A DNA stretch of 37,334 bases from Candidatus Woesearchaeota archaeon. GTDB lineage: Archaea; Nanobdellota; Nanobdellia; UBA10117; GCA-020343615. The stretch is taken from contig CP070803.1 of assembly GCA_020343615.1 (NCBI GenBank), positions 530,606 to 567,939 of the forward strand. Direction: 5' to 3'. How positions within the stretch are numbered: position 1 is the first letter of the stretch; each line of letters opens with the position of its first letter. Under the pieces are notes generated by a model. The model was given only the letters and a program-made list of their open reading frames with translations, was not told the origin of the DNA and did no database searches. The position numbers and the translations under genes are program-made. Below, in pieces: positions 26,340 to 36,636 of the stretch.

Positions 26340-26816
26340 ATGAGAGAATCCGTTAGAACAGGCTTTTGCTTCGGTACAACATCAGGTATAATTACAACTC
26401 TTGGGCTAATGGTTGGTTTGCATGCTGGAACTAAGTCACAGCTTGCAGTTGTAGGTGGTGTTTTAATTATAGCTATAGCAGATGCTTTTTCTGATGCTTT
26501 AGGTATACATGTTTCAGAAGAATCTGAGAACAGACATACAACAAAAGAGCTATGGGAATCTACATTTTGCACCTTTGGTTCTAAATTTATATTCGCATTA
26601 ACATTTATCATCCCTCTGCTCTTATTTGAATTATATACTGCAATTATTGTAAGTGTTATATGGGGTTTGTTTTTATTAGGAGTACTCAGTTTTTATATAG
26701 GAGTTAAAGAAAAGACAAAGACTTGGAAGGTTGTTGCTGAGCATTTGGTTATTGCTATTATAGTCATAATAATAACTCACTATGTTGGTGATTGGATAAG
26801 GTTAACATTCATTTAA
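26340..26816 (+). CDS. VIT1/CCC1-family-like membrane protein
   Basis: 158 residues with five membrane helices. The N-terminal half has the VIT/CCC1 signature: GTTSGIITTLGLMVGLHAGT, in pieces GTTSGIITTLGLMVGL and ADAFSDALGIHVSEESE, where an acidic, His-containing segment leads into a cytoplasmic helix (HTTKELWESTF). VIT1/CCC1 proteins move Fe2+ or Mn2+ across membranes. This version is shorter than plant and yeast members (around 250-320) and lacks the long metal-binding helix insert. Leaderless (36 nt). Its TAA overlaps the stop of the convergent methyltransferase gene. Confidence 0.82.
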   Translation: MRESVRTGFCFGTTSGIITTLGLMVGLHAGTKSQLAVVGGVLIIAIADAFSDALGIHVSEESENRHTTKELWESTFCTFGSKFIFALTFIIPLLLFELYTAIIVSVIWGLFLLGVLSFYIGVKEKTKTWKVVAEHLVIAIIVIIITHYVGDWIRLTFI

Positions 26817-27565
26817 ATAGAAACCTTTTTACAAATTATTAGAGATCTTGAAGCATTAGTTTTTATTCTGTCTCCTACATTATGCTCTCTCTCGAGTTTT
26901 TCTAAGAGCAGATAATCTTTCTTAATATCTATACCGTCGACTATGGGTGTATTTTTTAATAGAAATACTAGATCTCCAGGAATATAATATTCTATGATAT
27001 TAAATTTATCTTCTCTGATAATTCTGAATCCTGCCTCTTTTAGTTCTTTGACATACTTGTTCATCAAAGTGCCTGGTTCTTCACCATAAGATTGACCTCT
27101 TTCAAAAACCTTCTTGATATTTATTTTATCGTTTTCAGCAACTTGTTGAGTAATAAAGATTCCTTTTGGTTTTAAAACCCTAAAAACTTCTTTTGCATAA
27201 AAAGGAGCGTGTCTACAAATAACAATATCAAAATATTCATCTTTAAATGGGATTTTTTTGGAATCTGCTACTGAGAATTCAACATTTGATACCTTGGATT
27301 CTTTCAGATTCTTATTTGCCGTTTTTATCATTTTAGGGGAGACGTCTATGCCATAGGCTTTTCTAAAGTAATTTGCTACTTCTAGCAATAATTCACCGCC
27401 TCCTGTGCCAATATCTAAAAGAAAACTATCTCTATTTCCATAAGTTTTAACTAGTTCTATGTAGTTCCACTTTCTACCTTCAGTCTTGAGCCTCTTCCGA
27501 ATATCGCTGAAATCCCAGCCTATTACAGAACTAGCTTTATCGTATAACTCCTTATAATCTTCCAT
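26813..27565 (-). CDS. Class I SAM-dependent methyltransferase
   Basis: 250 residues. Motif I is LLDIGTGGGELLLEV (about 46-60), followed by AYGIDVSPKMI (motif II), EFSVADSKKIPF (motif III) and YFDIVICRHAPFY (motif IV, with HAPFY in place of the usual HxF/D). Motif order is that of small-molecule or tRNA-like class I methyltransferases; the substrate cannot be told. Start ATG 27565 was chosen because the N-terminus MEDYKELYDKAS matches such proteins and it lies one base after the stop of the upstream gene; a reading from 27601 would start inside that gene. It probably shares an mRNA with it. Confidence 0.85.
   Translation of the reverse strand: MEDYKELYDKASSVIGWDFSDIRKRLKTEGRKWNYIELVKTYGNRDSFLLDIGTGGGELLLEVANYFRKAYGIDVSPKMIKTANKNLKESKVSNVEFSVADSKKIPFKDEYFDIVICRHAPFYAKEVFRVLKPKGIFITQQVAENDKINIKKVFERGQSYGEEPGTLMNKYVKELKEAGFRIIREDKFNIIEYYIPGDLVFLLKNTPIVDGIDIKKDYLLLEKLEREHNVGDRIKTNASRSLIICKKVSI
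26818..26832 (+). repeat. Orphan promoter-like motif at convergent stops
   Basis: TAGAAACCTTTTTAC lies two bases past the VIT-like TAA and inside the last codons of the minus-strand methyltransferase. No start codon at +36. Confidence 0.5.
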
Positions 27566-27566
27566 A

Positions 27567-28067
27567 TTATAAATTCCAATCCCATTGGGATCTACTATCA
27601 ATAATTATTCCAGCATGATAAAATAATTCATATATCTTTTTGCCTTTGAAATGTATCTCTTCTGTTCCCTTTGCAAATTCCAGATCCCCTTTAATTTTAT
27701 TTATGTATTTGAATCCTTTTTCACTAAATCCATCCAATCCTCTGAATAATACCTTGCCGTGACCTGCAGCTAATGCCTTACTTAGAAAATCATACATAGT
27801 TTTTATATTGAATTTTTTATCAATAATATAGCCAAAATAATTTGCGACAAATACTGGTATCTCTTTATAGAATATTACATTTTCTCCTGCAAAATTCTCT
27901 CCGCCGGTATAACGATCAATAGCTCTGTAATCTCCGATTGAATATTCAATTTTCTTAAATCTTGGTAGGAAAGGGTCTTTAGTTTTTGTTTTAGATGCCT
28001 CGTAGACGTATTGCTGGTATTTGCCAGAAGTTTTGAACTTTTCGAGGTCTTTTAAGTTGATTTTCAT
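27567..28067 (-). CDS. DUF5680-like protein
   Basis: 166 residues, no membrane helix or signal. The pattern YVYEASKTKTK, DYRAIDRYTGGENFAGENVIFYKEIPVFVANYFG (in pieces DRYTGGENFAGEN and PVFVANYFG), a middle VLFRGLDGFSEKGFKY and the C-terminal GTEEIHFKGKKIYELFYHAGII resembles DUF5680, a small domain of unknown function often found beside methyltransferases or regulators. The methyltransferase gene begins 1 bp after its stop, so the two are one operon. Confidence 0.65.
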   Translation of the reverse strand: MKINLKDLEKFKTSGKYQQYVYEASKTKTKDPFLPRFKKIEYSIGDYRAIDRYTGGENFAGENVIFYKEIPVFVANYFGYIIDKKFNIKTMYDFLSKALAAGHGKVLFRGLDGFSEKGFKYINKIKGDLEFAKGTEEIHFKGKKIYELFYHAGIIIDSRSQWDWNL

Positions 28068-28105: not shown

Positions 28106-29203
28106 CTAATTAAGCATAATACCTGAAAAATCATCATCAATCGTACATCCTGCACAACCTATACAACCCGGAGAATTTCTTCTGTTTAAACCATACTTAC
28201 GTAGCAACTGAGATACCTTCTTACCTATAATCAGTAATTCTTTAGGGTTAGGGGGCAGTTTATCCTCATACTCGCTGCCATCAAAGGGTCTGAATGTGAG
28301 AATAGAAGGGATAACTCCTCTCTTTGTTATTTCTTTTGCTCCTTTGAGCGTTGATTCTAATGGCTCCAAGCCAGCTATCAAAACAGTGCATACATTGCTT
28401 TTACCTACTTTACTTAGAGCATATTCCCAAGTGTCAAAATATCTCTGTCTACTAATCTCTGACTTACCCGGACAGATTTTTTTTCTAAGAGACTCATCCC
28501 ATAATTCTATATCGAAGCCAAAAGAGTTGCTTCCGCTCTTAACCAGTAGGTCTATATACTCATTGGTATCTGGTGGAGAAAGTTCTGAGAAAATAGGTAT
28601 TTTTGATAGTTTTCGTATCGCTTTAACATATTTAGACAGGTGACCTGCTGATTTATCTGGTGTAAGTGTAGTACCTCCGCTAAGGCTCACTGAAGATGAT
28701 GGGTTTTCTCTAAATGCTGCTGCTGCTGTTTCAGCAACGTCTTGTGGGTTTCTCTCGACTATCTTACTAGAAGAAATTGAGCAAAATTTACATTGTCGTC
28801 CAATAGCAGAGTAGCCACATGGCATATAATAAGGACTATGCAGTGTGTTAATTCCTTCTAACAGAAATAATTTATACATTGGGATTCCATTGCTTGTTTT
28901 TTTAGAATACCATTTAGGCGGCTTGACAATTTCTATCTCACAAGCTTTATTATCGTTTTTGTATAAAAACCATTTCTTTCCTTCTTGTTTTAGTTCATAC
29001 GGAGAACTTCGTGTGTACTTGTGTCCGAGTATCGCCATCACGTAAGAATTGTAACCTAAATCTATATGTAAGCCAACATTACCTGTTTTTCTATGATCAA
29101 ATGGATTCTGGATTCTGAAGGCTTTATAAGCTACCTCGGTAGGTTTAATACTCCAGCATAAAAGCTCTGCTTTTATTTTGATTATTTCTTCAGGGCAATT
29201 CAT
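28106..29203 (-). CDS. Radical SAM protein with atypical CX8CX2C motif
   Basis: 365 residues. The cluster-binding cysteines are C129, C138 and C141 (CGYSAIGRQCKFC), a CX8CX2C arrangement in place of the usual CX3CX2C. The TIM-barrel continues with SLSGGTTL (the GGE-like motif), ELSPPD and FGFDIELWDE. A C-terminal CIGCAGC (C347, C350, C353) could bind an auxiliary cluster. The product and substrate are unknown; this atypical spacing occurs in a few minor radical SAM families. It is the third gene of a unit joined by ATGA overlaps to a D-2-hydroxyacid dehydrogenase and an FMN reductase, so it probably acts in the same pathway. Confidence 0.85.
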   Translation of the reverse strand: MNCPEEIIKIKAELLCWSIKPTEVAYKAFRIQNPFDHRKTGNVGLHIDLGYNSYVMAILGHKYTRSSPYELKQEGKKWFLYKNDNKACEIEIVKPPKWYSKKTSNGIPMYKLFLLEGINTLHSPYYMPCGYSAIGRQCKFCSISSSKIVERNPQDVAETAAAAFRENPSSSVSLSGGTTLTPDKSAGHLSKYVKAIRKLSKIPIFSELSPPDTNEYIDLLVKSGSNSFGFDIELWDESLRKKICPGKSEISRQRYFDTWEYALSKVGKSNVCTVLIAGLEPLESTLKGAKEITKRGVIPSILTFRPFDGSEYEDKLPPNPKELLIIGKKVSQLLRKYGLNRRNSPGCIGCAGCTIDDDFSGIMLN

Positions 29204-30135
29204 GTGGGCACCTTGTTCTGAACATTACCTTTTAGATAACTGTCGGCATTATCTATAACAATTTGAGTCAAGTTTTTTATGGAGCTCTTAGTATAAAATC
29301 CGATATGAGGTGTTAAAACAGTCCTGTCTTTCATTTTTATGAAAACTTTCTTTGCTTTTTCATCTTGAATGTCATCTATAACTGCTTTAATCTTACCCTT
29401 TTCAACAAATTTAGCTAAAGCAGTTTCATCAACGACTCTACCATGAACAAAATTAATGAATATAGAATCGTCTTTCATTAACTGAAACTCTTTCTCTCCA
29501 AGTAATTTCTCTGTTTGAGAGTTCAAGCTCGTATTTATACTTACAACATCAGATTTTTTTAATAAGTCTCTTAATTCGCAGAATTCATAAGATACATCTT
29601 TTTTAGTTCTACTGCTATAAATTATATTCATGCCAAAAGCAGATGCAAGTTCAGCAACTCTCCGCCCTATTTCACCAAGTCCTATTATACCGATAGTCTT
29701 ACCCTTCAGATTTTCACCATAGAGATCTTCTTTTTTACCTTCCCCACTTCTAGTAAATTTATCTGCTTTTAAGGTATTCCTTGACAAAGCAATTAAGTTA
29801 CCTATAATCAATTCCGCTACTGATTCTGTAGCATAGTGTGGAACATTAGTAACAGTAATCCCCTTATCAATAGCAGTCTTAACATCAATCCAACCATAAC
29901 CTGTTGCATATACTCCCATATATTTTACATTAGACCATTCTTTAATTATAGAACCGTCTAAATCGGTCCAAGAAGTAATAACTGCATCAGCATCTCCTAC
30001 CCTTTTGATTATTTCTTCTCTTGTTTTTGCAGTATCATCATATATTATTACTTCGTCTGCTAATTCTTTTAATTGATCTTTTTGATTTCCAAAGAAGTCT
30101 ACTTTATCCAAGATTACTAATTTCTTGAATTTCAT
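29200..30135 (-). CDS. D-isomer-specific 2-hydroxyacid dehydrogenase family protein
   Basis: 311 residues. Substrate domain (about 1-95) with the family's AVITSW segment; NAD-binding domain with GKTIGIIGLGEIGRRV (about 142-157); catalytic region with VHGRVVDETAL (the Arg) and the final LTPHIGF (His). Acts on a D-2-hydroxy or 2-keto acid with NAD(P)H. The start is ATG 30135, which overlaps the upstream stop as ATGA; a longer reading to 30240 lies inside the FMN reductase gene. It is the middle gene of the three-gene redox unit, whose substrate is not known. Confidence 0.9.
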   Translation of the reverse strand: MKFKKLVILDKVDFFGNQKDQLKELADEVIIYDDTAKTREEIIKRVGDADAVITSWTDLDGSIIKEWSNVKYMGVYATGYGWIDVKTAIDKGITVTNVPHYATESVAELIIGNLIALSRNTLKADKFTRSGEGKKEDLYGENLKGKTIGIIGLGEIGRRVAELASAFGMNIIYSSRTKKDVSYEFCELRDLLKKSDVVSINTSLNSQTEKLLGEKEFQLMKDDSIFINFVHGRVVDETALAKFVEKGKIKAVIDDIQDEKAKKVFIKMKDRTVLTPHIGFYTKSSIKNLTQIVIDNADSYLKGNVQNKVPT

Positions 30136-30728
30136 TTTGGATAAAACCACCTCCCCTGCTTTTCCTTCACAAGTTCGGTTAGCATTATTAGATTCTTTGC
30201 AAGCCTTTTTACTGGTTTTACACCGAATTCTTCTCTCCATACCTTTCCATTATTAGCAAATAGGTCATTATATGGTGCTATAATTGCTCCCATTGAAGAC
30301 ACAGGTGCTAACATCTGGAGCGTAACTCCTGCTGCACCATCAAGGTATGCTGTTGTAACAAAACCAAAGACTTTTCCGTCTAAAACAGGAGGTTCAGCCA
30401 CATCACAACTAGTTAATCTGTCAATGAAGTTCTTCATTAAGCCAGACATAGCGTACCAATACACTGGAGAAGCCAAAATAACACAATCTGCTTTTTTAAT
30501 TAACTCAATTAATCCATGCATATCGTCCTTAATAGAACAAGGGTAACTACAGGTTGTTCCTCCTTCTGCACAATAGCTGAGGCATGGTTTTATCTTCTTA
30601 TCAACTAAATGTATGGTTTTTACTTTAGCGTCTTTTTCTATGAAACCTGTGAGTTTCTTTAGTAACTTAGCAGTATTGCCGTTCTTTTTGGCAGAACCAT
30701 TAAATGCTAAAACAGAGATTTTTTCCAT
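30132..30728 (-). CDS. NADPH-dependent FMN reductase / flavodoxin-like protein
   Basis: 198 residues. Flavodoxin-like fold: the FMN phosphate loop NGSAKKNGNTAKLLKKL (10-26), the SPVYWYAMSGLMKNFIDR segment (about 92-110) that contacts the flavin, and SMGAIIAPYNDLF. A Cys-rich stretch (KPCLSYCAEGGTTCSYPC, about 48-65) resembles the iron-sulfur flavoproteins of archaea, though not their compact four-Cys motif. It may supply electrons or reduce a product for its operon partners. The SD AGGTGAAG precedes the ATG; the start is 47 nt from the BRE at 30775. Confidence 0.9.
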   Translation of the reverse strand: MEKISVLAFNGSAKKNGNTAKLLKKLTGFIEKDAKVKTIHLVDKKIKPCLSYCAEGGTTCSYPCSIKDDMHGLIELIKKADCVILASPVYWYAMSGLMKNFIDRLTSCDVAEPPVLDGKVFGFVTTAYLDGAAGVTLQMLAPVSSMGAIIAPYNDLFANNGKVWREEFGVKPVKRLAKNLIMLTELVKEKQGRWFYPK

Positions 30729-30764
30729 TTCTTCACCTCGAATAATTAACTGTATTGGTTATTT

Positions 30765-30796
30765 TAAAACCTTGCTAAATAGAAAGGTTTTTACAA
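30765..30796. promoter_or_regulatory. Promoter of the redox operon with facing orphan half (inverted repeat)
   Basis: Minus: GCAAGGTTTTAAAAT is the promoter. The plus half TAGAAAGGTTTTTAC has no gene. AAAACCTT and AAGGTTTT form a perfect 8-bp inverted repeat around a 10-bp loop. The TTA of TTTTTAC is the stop codon of the RelE-like gene. Confidence 0.65.
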
Positions 30797-31054
30797 ATAT
30801 GCTTTATCGTGGTGTTTAAAGGCTAAAAATCTAACAACTTTTCTTTTTTCATTAATTTCATAAACTAAAACGAAATGACCTATATGAACACTTCTTAAAT
30901 TCTGCATTGGTTTTCTTAAAGGCTTATAGTGTTTAGGATGTAAACAAATTTCATCTATCTTTTTCTTTATGGCTTTTATCAGACTTCTGTCTTTCTTTGA
31001 AATCTTCATAAGAGTTTTGTCGAGTTTTTCTGAAATTTCAAAATCATAAGTCAT
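30791..31054 (-). CDS. RelE/ParE-type toxin
   Basis: 87 residues with the RelE fold order: FEISEKLDKTLMKISKKDR, in pieces EISEKLDKTLMKI and KAIKKKIDEICLHPKHYKPL, then the antiparallel strands LRSVHIGHFVLVYEI and KVVRFLAFKHHDKAY. This matches archaeal RelE-like toxins, which cut mRNA in the ribosome. It follows the DUF2683 antitoxin gene by an ATGA overlap. Its stop lies within the inverted-repeat promoter element of the next operon. Confidence 0.9.
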   Translation of the reverse strand: MTYDFEISEKLDKTLMKISKKDRSLIKAIKKKIDEICLHPKHYKPLRKPMQNLRSVHIGHFVLVYEINEKRKVVRFLAFKHHDKAYL

Positions 31055-31284
31055 TTCAATCCGTATCTCTCACCGAAATTCTTTACTTTAATGAACTTAC
31101 CTTTTCTAGCTTCTTCTATCTCTTTTATAAATTCAGGTCTTAATTCAGGTTCCATAATTTCTTCTTCGTATTGTTTTACTAATAGATTTATTGCTTCTGA
31201 TTTGTCTATCAAACCATACTTCGCTTTAACTATGTTTATCACTCTATTTGCTCTTTCACTTATAGTTACGATTGCTTGTACCAT
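31051..31284 (-). CDS. DUF2683-type antitoxin
   Basis: 77 residues: VQAIVTISERANRVINIVKAKYGLIDKSEAINLLVKQYEEE, in pieces RANRVINIVKAKYGLIDKSE and INLLVKQYEEE, then a C-terminal toxin-wrapping segment rich in charged and aromatic residues (EIEEARKGKFIKVKNFGERYGL). This is the DUF2683 antitoxin pattern known from archaeal TA pairs. It precedes the RelE-like toxin and overlaps it by ATGA. Two 11-bp direct repeats between TATA box and start codon are likely its own operators. Confidence 0.88.
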   Translation of the reverse strand: MVQAIVTISERANRVINIVKAKYGLIDKSEAINLLVKQYEEEIMEPELRPEFIKEIEEARKGKFIKVKNFGERYGLK

Positions 31285-36227: not shown

Positions 36228-36273
36228 ATCAGTATTCTTTATCTTCTTCAGAGGTGTCTTCCTCTGTAGTTTC

Positions 36274-36546
36274 CTATTCAGTATCTTCTTCTGTTTCGTC
36301 GGATTCGTCTTCTGATTCTTCATCTTCAGACTCTTCCTCAGATTCGTCTTCGTCAGAACCCTCTTCGGATTCGGTTTCTTCATCGTCTGATTCTGTATCT
36401 TCTTCATCTTCAGACTCTTCAGTTTCAGTAGACTCCTCTTCTGTTTCTTCACTATCGGAGTCAGTTTCTTCTTCAGTGGATTCCTCTTCTACAGCTTCTT
36501 GTTCTTCGGAATCTTCACCTTCCACTCTTTCTTCATCTTCAAACAT
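36274..36546 (-). CDS. Acidic low-complexity protein, possibly truncated by an amber codon
   Basis: 90 residues, almost all Glu, Asp, Ser and Thr (for example ESEDEEDTESDDEE), probably disordered and strongly negative. Start ATG 36546 was chosen because GAGGT lies 6 nt upstream; ATG 36552 directly abuts the SD. The frame ends at TAG (36274-36276), but the next 14 codons continue in the same composition (ETTEEDTSEEDKEY) to TGA at 36229-36231, and the terminator lies beyond that second stop. A single G-to-T change in a GAG codon would explain it, as would occasional readthrough. Repeats in such low-complexity DNA also make sequencing or assembly errors possible. Confidence 0.6.
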   Translation of the reverse strand: MFEDEERVEGEDSEEQEAVEEESTEEETDSDSEETEEESTETEESEDEEDTESDDEETESEEGSDEDESEEESEDEESEDESDETEEDTE

Positions 36547-36600
36547 TTTCATACCTCTTACGACAATTCAGACCCAAAAAAGAACACACTTTATTAATTA

Positions 36601-36636
36601 TTCGGTTTTCTAGGATATAATAGAAACCTTTTTACA
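36601..36636. promoter_or_regulatory. Divergent promoter pair
   Basis: Minus: ACCGAATAATTAATAAAG for the acidic-protein gene. Plus: TAGAAACCTTTTTACATTTT (BRE 36623) for the 36659 gene, exactly 36 nt. Confidence 0.6.

Follow-up and report, generated by a model that had tools for sequence, protein, structure and literature searches.

A minus-strand run of three consecutive genes, encoding in order a flavodoxin-like FMN reductase, a D-2-hydroxyacid dehydrogenase and a radical SAM protein, looks like a single translationally coupled operon in the genome of a Candidatus Woesearchaeota archaeon, and the combination appears, as far as we have searched, to be private to this lineage. The novelty lies in this combination of genes, not in the kind of enzyme. 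We propose, tentatively, that the operon is a redox cassette private to this lineage, coupled in translation and centred on a variant radical SAM enzyme related to NitD, which the flavoprotein would reduce while the dehydrogenase would handle a related carbonyl or alcohol.

Organization of the three-gene operon and its surroundings

The window, i.e. the whole stretch of 37,334 nucleotides that was analyzed, belongs to a genome of 919,375 bases assembled in one contig and 83.84% complete. The three genes (Table 1), their protein classes and the two ATGA overlaps that join them are as a previous sequence-only reading of this DNA had described. The stop codon of the FMN reductase gene and the ATG of the dehydrogenase gene share ATGA at 30132-30135, and the dehydrogenase stop is shared in the same way with the ATG of the radical SAM gene at 29200-29203. 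Each protein scored above the cut-off of its Pfam model (FMN_red, 2-Hacid_dh_C and Radical_SAM). Translation of the dehydrogenase probably starts at the ATG at 30135, since the earlier in-frame ATG at 30240 falls well within the FMN reductase gene.

Table 1. Location of the genes and sequence features of the operon in the window
Feature	Position	Strand	Evidence
FMN_red/Flavodoxin_2 flavoprotein, first gene, 198 aa (P0003)	30132..30728	-	Pfam FMN_red 101.3 bits; nearest PDB chains are flavodoxin-fold oxidoreductases
D-2-hydroxyacid dehydrogenase family protein, second gene, 311 aa (P0002)	29200..30135	-	Pfam 2-Hacid_dh_C 153.9 bits; 2dbq E 2e-47
Variant radical SAM protein, third gene, 365 aa (P0001)	28106..29203	-	NF045502 204.7 bits; Pfam Radical_SAM 41.3 bits
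Shine-Dalgarno-like GAGGTGA, 4 bases 5' of the ATG of the first gene	30733..30739	-	Upstream sequence
Four-Cys loop C49-X3-C53-X6-C60-X3-C64 at the iron-sulfur-flavoprotein site	30537..30584	-	Alignment with 29 homologue rows
Codon of His231, at the catalytic Arg position	29443..29445	-	phmmer alignment to 2dbq; Arg in 27/31 homologue rows
Radical SAM cluster motif CX8CX2C (C129, C138, C141)	28781..28819	-	Invariant in 15-sequence alignment
C-terminal CIGCAGC (C347, C350, C353), candidate auxiliary-cluster site	28145..28165	-	CX2CX2C in 28/28 NitD and 5/11 archaeal relatives; invariant in 25-row alignment

A DUF5680 gene begins 38 bases 3' of the radical SAM gene and is followed by a methyltransferase gene. 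Given that the gap ahead of the DUF5680 gene is AT-rich and contains no Shine-Dalgarno-like sequence, we treated these two genes as a separate unit. The class I methyltransferase closely trails the DUF5680 protein (26813-28067), and the pair could still be co-transcribed with the operon. Just upstream of the operon, on the same strand, a ParE-type toxin (PF05016) and a DUF2683 protein are encoded by a gene pair with a four-base overlap (30791-31284). Open reading frames overlapping on opposite strands were also observed at 36254-36613, the plus-strand product being Ser-rich and the minus-strand product Glu/Asp-rich.

A radical SAM protein of a known family

The radical SAM protein passed the cut-off of the NCBIfam NF045502 “variant_rSAM” model over its full length (204.7 bits for a cut-off of 125, profile positions 3-357 of 357). 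NF045502 is a domain-level family whose nearest named branch is MSMEG_0568/NitD of the Nit1C nitrilase cluster, and the gene neighborhood of the window member is new. Against TIGR04043 (“MSMEG_0568 family”, NitD), the protein scored 177.5 bits over residues 56-354 and failed the cut-off of 303.7 bits; a true NitD (P0004) scored 583.2 bits. Its place in the radical SAM superfamily is indicated by a PF04055 match above cut-off, a three-Cys motif with an aromatic residue, F140, before the last Cys, and a predicted TIM-type barrel fold. Fifteen aligned sequences all share C129, C138, F140, C141, G177, E233 and K247, and the invariance of the first four across these relatives identifies CX8CX2C as a genuine radical SAM cluster motif rather than a chance spacing. 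The source genome has 11 Radical_SAM matches, which indicates that radical SAM chemistry is in use in this organism.

Both cysteine triads, C129/C138/C141 and C347/C350/C353, were located as claimed. The enzyme had also been called atypical on account of them, a description that no longer applies, since CX8CX2C and the C-terminal triad are traits of the known NF045502 family, NitD branch included. All 28 NitD proteins translated from the 80 loci kept carry CX9CX2C and a C-terminal CxxCxxC, and C347, C350 and C353 line up with the CxxCxxC of all 24 NitD rows in a 25-row alignment (A5) of the window protein and 24 NitD. Eleven archaeal relatives of the same phylum vary in the first motif: seven have CX8CX2C, L030 has CX9CX2C, L031 has CX7CX2C, and L027 and L028 share CX3CX2C (these last four counted by eye on the sequence), so that the first gap ranges from 3 to 9 residues over the family; five of the 11 have the C-terminal CX2CX2C triad. 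The suggestion that this triad binds an auxiliary cluster is thus partly upheld: its conservation makes it a plausible site, and the cluster itself is a prediction.

A family tree of 20 proteins was built. The NitD rows formed one clade (support 100/99), and the window protein fell outside it, with a placement support of 76/74 and long branches around. It resembles NitD in domain layout, in the lengthened first motif spacing, in the C-terminal CxxCxxC and in sequence (24-32% identity), whereas it differs by its CX8CX2C instead of CX9CX2C, by its position outside the clade and by the genes around it. The MSMEG_0568 protein is the NitD of Nit1C, as plasmid loci put its gene beside those for Nit6803 nitrilase, GNAT, AIR-synthase-like and nitrogen-starvation proteins. 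None of the Nit1C partners sought (nitrilase, GNAT, AIR-synthase-like) was present among the scanned neighbor genes of the window protein, and the source genome gave no CN_hydrolase (nitrilase) match in a search that was positive in 12 of 14 controls. Membership of Nit1C was ruled out on the TIGR04043 score, the place outside the NitD clade and the lack of CN_hydrolase. From its profile matches and its place in the tree, the protein is a member of a known family, not NitD proper. A literature search with the terms MSMEG_0568, Nit1C, NitD, Sll0785 and CX8CX2C returned no assigned chemistry for the NF045502/NitD family.

Predicted fold and candidate second cluster

The structure of the radical SAM protein was predicted with AlphaFold2 from an alignment of the window protein and 24 NitD (pLDDT 88.2, pTM 0.88). 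Lipoyl synthase 8tsk was the best structural match (Z 18.3 over 241 residues, 3.3 A), followed by HydE (Z 16.6), biotin synthase (15.8) and MqnE (15.6). Foldseek also returned lipoyl synthase as the closest fold, and a sequence profile search likewise reached biotin synthase and MqnE. Pentatricopeptide-repeat matches in the PDB searches were short and confined to one helical stretch, and were disregarded.

The structural alignments end at residue 352 of the model, equivalent to 298 of Mycobacterium tuberculosis LipA (5exi), and at residue 357, equivalent to 358 of human lipoyl synthase (8tsk). In the human enzyme, Ser352 of the C-terminal RSSY is described as an auxiliary-cluster ligand (PMC12246082). 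Judging from these end points, C347-C353 would fall in the region of the RSSY of lipoyl synthase, in a stretch modeled with a pLDDT of about 80. The likeness to LipA and BioB comprises the barrel fold and a suspected second Fe-S cluster at the barrel mouth, whereas both of these enzymes have CX3CX2C and other auxiliary Cys motifs. Lipoyl synthase sequence models matched the window protein with E-values of 0.025-0.03 at best, and the lipoyl synthase marks CX4CX5C and RSSY are absent from its sequence. The archaeal lipoyl synthases LipS1 and LipS2 are reported to use CX3CX2C (PMC9585515), and identity with either was ruled out on this ground. Lipoyl synthesis by the window protein is unlikely, because a search of the source genome for Biotin_lipoyl domains gave none, while being positive in 14 of 14 controls; in a genome that is 83.84% complete such an absence is not proof.

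The flavoprotein carries a four-cysteine loop

The loop cysteines of the flavoprotein differ in their conservation among the 29 homologue rows, which include one protein twice (L122 and L181): C49 and C64 are each found in 22 rows, C60 in seven and C53 in one. Like members of the iron-sulfur flavoprotein (Isf) family, the window flavoprotein is of FMN_red type, and its four Cys lie in the loop that holds the [4Fe-4S] cluster in Isf proteins. The Isf motif is described as a compact CX2CX2CX5-7C (PMC3164229), whereas the spacing here is CX3CX6CX3C, which departs from the strict motif. A putative Fe-S cluster on this loop is possible, and a role of the flavoprotein as reductant of the radical SAM enzyme is plausible; the four-Cys loop would suit electron transfer. 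Four other loci (L123, L124, L125 and L128) encode FMN_red-type proteins that start, as judged by eye, with a rubredoxin-like CxxCG...CPxC and also have a CWCC...TYPC loop.

The dehydrogenase lacks the catalytic arginine

The closest solved structures to the dehydrogenase are glyoxylate reductase 2dbq and glycerate dehydrogenase 6p2i, to which it is similar over nearly its whole length. Catalytic His277 is present, as is a glycine-rich NAD(P) motif, whereas the segment of the catalytic Arg reads INFVHGR against INIARGK in 2dbq in the phmmer alignment, which places His231 at the Arg position. The position of the catalytic Glu is ambiguous by one residue: it aligned in phmmer and was shifted in MAFFT, a one-residue gap making the difference. 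In published work this Arg ranks first among the active-site residues of the family in conservation, and the available part of the same source records substitutions of the catalytic Glu and His and none of Arg (PMC6303947). In 31 homologue rows from the phylum, the position is occupied by 27 Arg, two Pro, one Gln and one Ile. The window dehydrogenase forms a group with precisely the four homologues that lack Arg (support 86/82, with long branches). His231 could mean that the enzyme is inactive, or could be a sequence error.

These Arg-less relatives of the window dehydrogenase are found at L152, L159, L162 and L164, and some also lack the catalytic His. The gene of one of the four follows, with a four-base overlap, a nitroreductase-family flavoprotein gene (genome G067, L201:7307-8898); this pair appears to be a parallel to the flavoprotein-dehydrogenase pair of the window operon, with a different flavoprotein. 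The dehydrogenase had been suggested to process the product of the radical SAM enzyme. The idea is weakened by the missing catalytic Arg, without which 2-hydroxyacid dehydrogenase activity on that product is not to be taken for granted.

Among the loci searched, only that of the window has the gene order

The distribution of the three proteins was assessed in the phylum of the window. A search of 371 phylum genomes with the radical SAM protein matched 21, its own included, the best of the others being 24-34% identical. In 18 genomes of the same order, the only match to the radical SAM protein was its own genome, which is the sole representative of its taxonomic family among them. Relatives of the FMN reductase and of the dehydrogenase occur in 33 and 142 of 279 phylum genomes, respectively, own genome included in both counts. 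A pattern scan of 84,980 species genomes with the radical SAM protein found no close relative, and the best 80 of 120 matches kept from a search of the same collection with alignment A3 were all bacterial NitD.

The gene order was then searched by blastp and tblastn and by profiles of all three proteins on 206 loci, which were taken for the better matches only, many with just about 1.5 kb of flank. The three genes occur together at six of these loci (L001, L003, L121, L151, L184 and L199), all of which are copies of the window's own locus. The three-gene order, whose absence elsewhere the sequence-only reading had named as one possible refutation, was missing from all other loci, so that comparison lends a shared pathway no support. 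None of the 206 loci besides that of the window pairs the radical SAM gene with a flavoprotein or a dehydrogenase gene. The FMN reductase and dehydrogenase genes co-occur, non-adjacent and without the radical SAM gene, at L181 and L182.

Other members of the radical SAM family have unrelated gene contexts. Variant radical SAM genes encoding a C-terminal CxxCxxC are located directly upstream of a histidyl-tRNA synthetase gene at L034:7751-10208 and L037:4252-6375, and are separated from such a gene by one other gene at L031:3093-6621. The gene of a CX3CX2C relative overlaps by one base with an aspartate/ornithine carbamoyltransferase-family gene (L028:2223-5350), and that of a CX9CX2C relative with a C-terminal CSGCGGC lies in a gene run including an Asp/Glu racemase and an aminotransferase (L030:3014-7889).

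Proposed function and alternative explanations

In the cassette that we propose, C129, C138 and C141 are predicted to bind the SAM-cleaving [4Fe-4S] cluster in a barrel like that of lipoyl and biotin synthases, and C347, C350 and C353 a second Fe-S cluster at the C-terminal mouth of the barrel. The FMN flavoprotein, perhaps with an Fe-S cluster of its own on the four-Cys loop, would supply the radical SAM cluster with electrons taken from NAD(P)H or ferredoxin, and the resulting 5'-deoxyadenosyl radical would take a hydrogen from a small substrate. The second cluster may serve in substrate binding, electron relay or sulfur donation. The dehydrogenase-fold protein would form or reduce a related carbonyl or alcohol with NAD(P)H. 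As it lacks the carboxylate-binding Arg, its substrate would be something other than an ordinary 2-oxo acid. A stronger version, which we regard as doubtful, is a new archaeal radical SAM pathway unconnected with nitriles, where a dedicated iron-sulfur flavoprotein would power a NitD-type enzyme that has two clusters and resembles lipoyl synthase. The Arg-less dehydrogenase would be part of that same doubtful version, as a member of a clade of repurposed 2-hydroxyacid dehydrogenases in the phylum.

An operon of convenience, in which a compact genome co-transcribes a general quinone or FMN reductase, a general carbonyl reductase and a separately acting radical SAM enzyme, falls only slightly short of a joint pathway in likelihood. 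No neighborhood is conserved over the 206 loci, both the flavoprotein and the dehydrogenase families occur in the phylum without the trio, and their genes lie near each other without the radical SAM gene at L181, L182 and L201. However, two successive four-base overlaps imply tight translational coupling, and the Cys loop of the flavoprotein suits electron transfer. The operon might also hold two catalysts only, the dehydrogenase being a pseudo-enzyme whose active site has degenerated and which serves as a sensor or scaffold. His231 and the grouping with exactly the four Arg-less homologues are consistent with this, but the retained His277 and NAD(P) motif speak against it, and the grouping may be an artefact of long branches; we consider this explanation improbable.

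Two further explanations concern the radical SAM enzyme. One takes the protein for a divergent NitD whose substrates are nitriles or cyanide, as in Nit1C, which would accord with its partial TIGR04043 match, its identity to NitD and the shared C-terminal Cys motif. It is nevertheless very improbable, with a score far under the cut-off, a position outside a well-supported NitD clade, no adjoining Nit1C partner and a genome that gave no CN_hydrolase match. The other, an unrecognised lipoyl or biotin synthase that inserts sulfur into an acyl chain, would fit the closest fold and the candidate second cluster, yet the missing CX4CX5C, the different motif of LipS1/LipS2 and the undetected Biotin_lipoyl domain make it scarcely credible.

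The NitD/variant radical SAM family is widespread, with 516 plasmid records alone. As a member located outside the nitrilase cluster and accompanied by its own candidate reductant, the window protein would offer a small, expressible system for probing the function of the family, and the same system could show whether the C-terminal Cys triad carries a second cluster.
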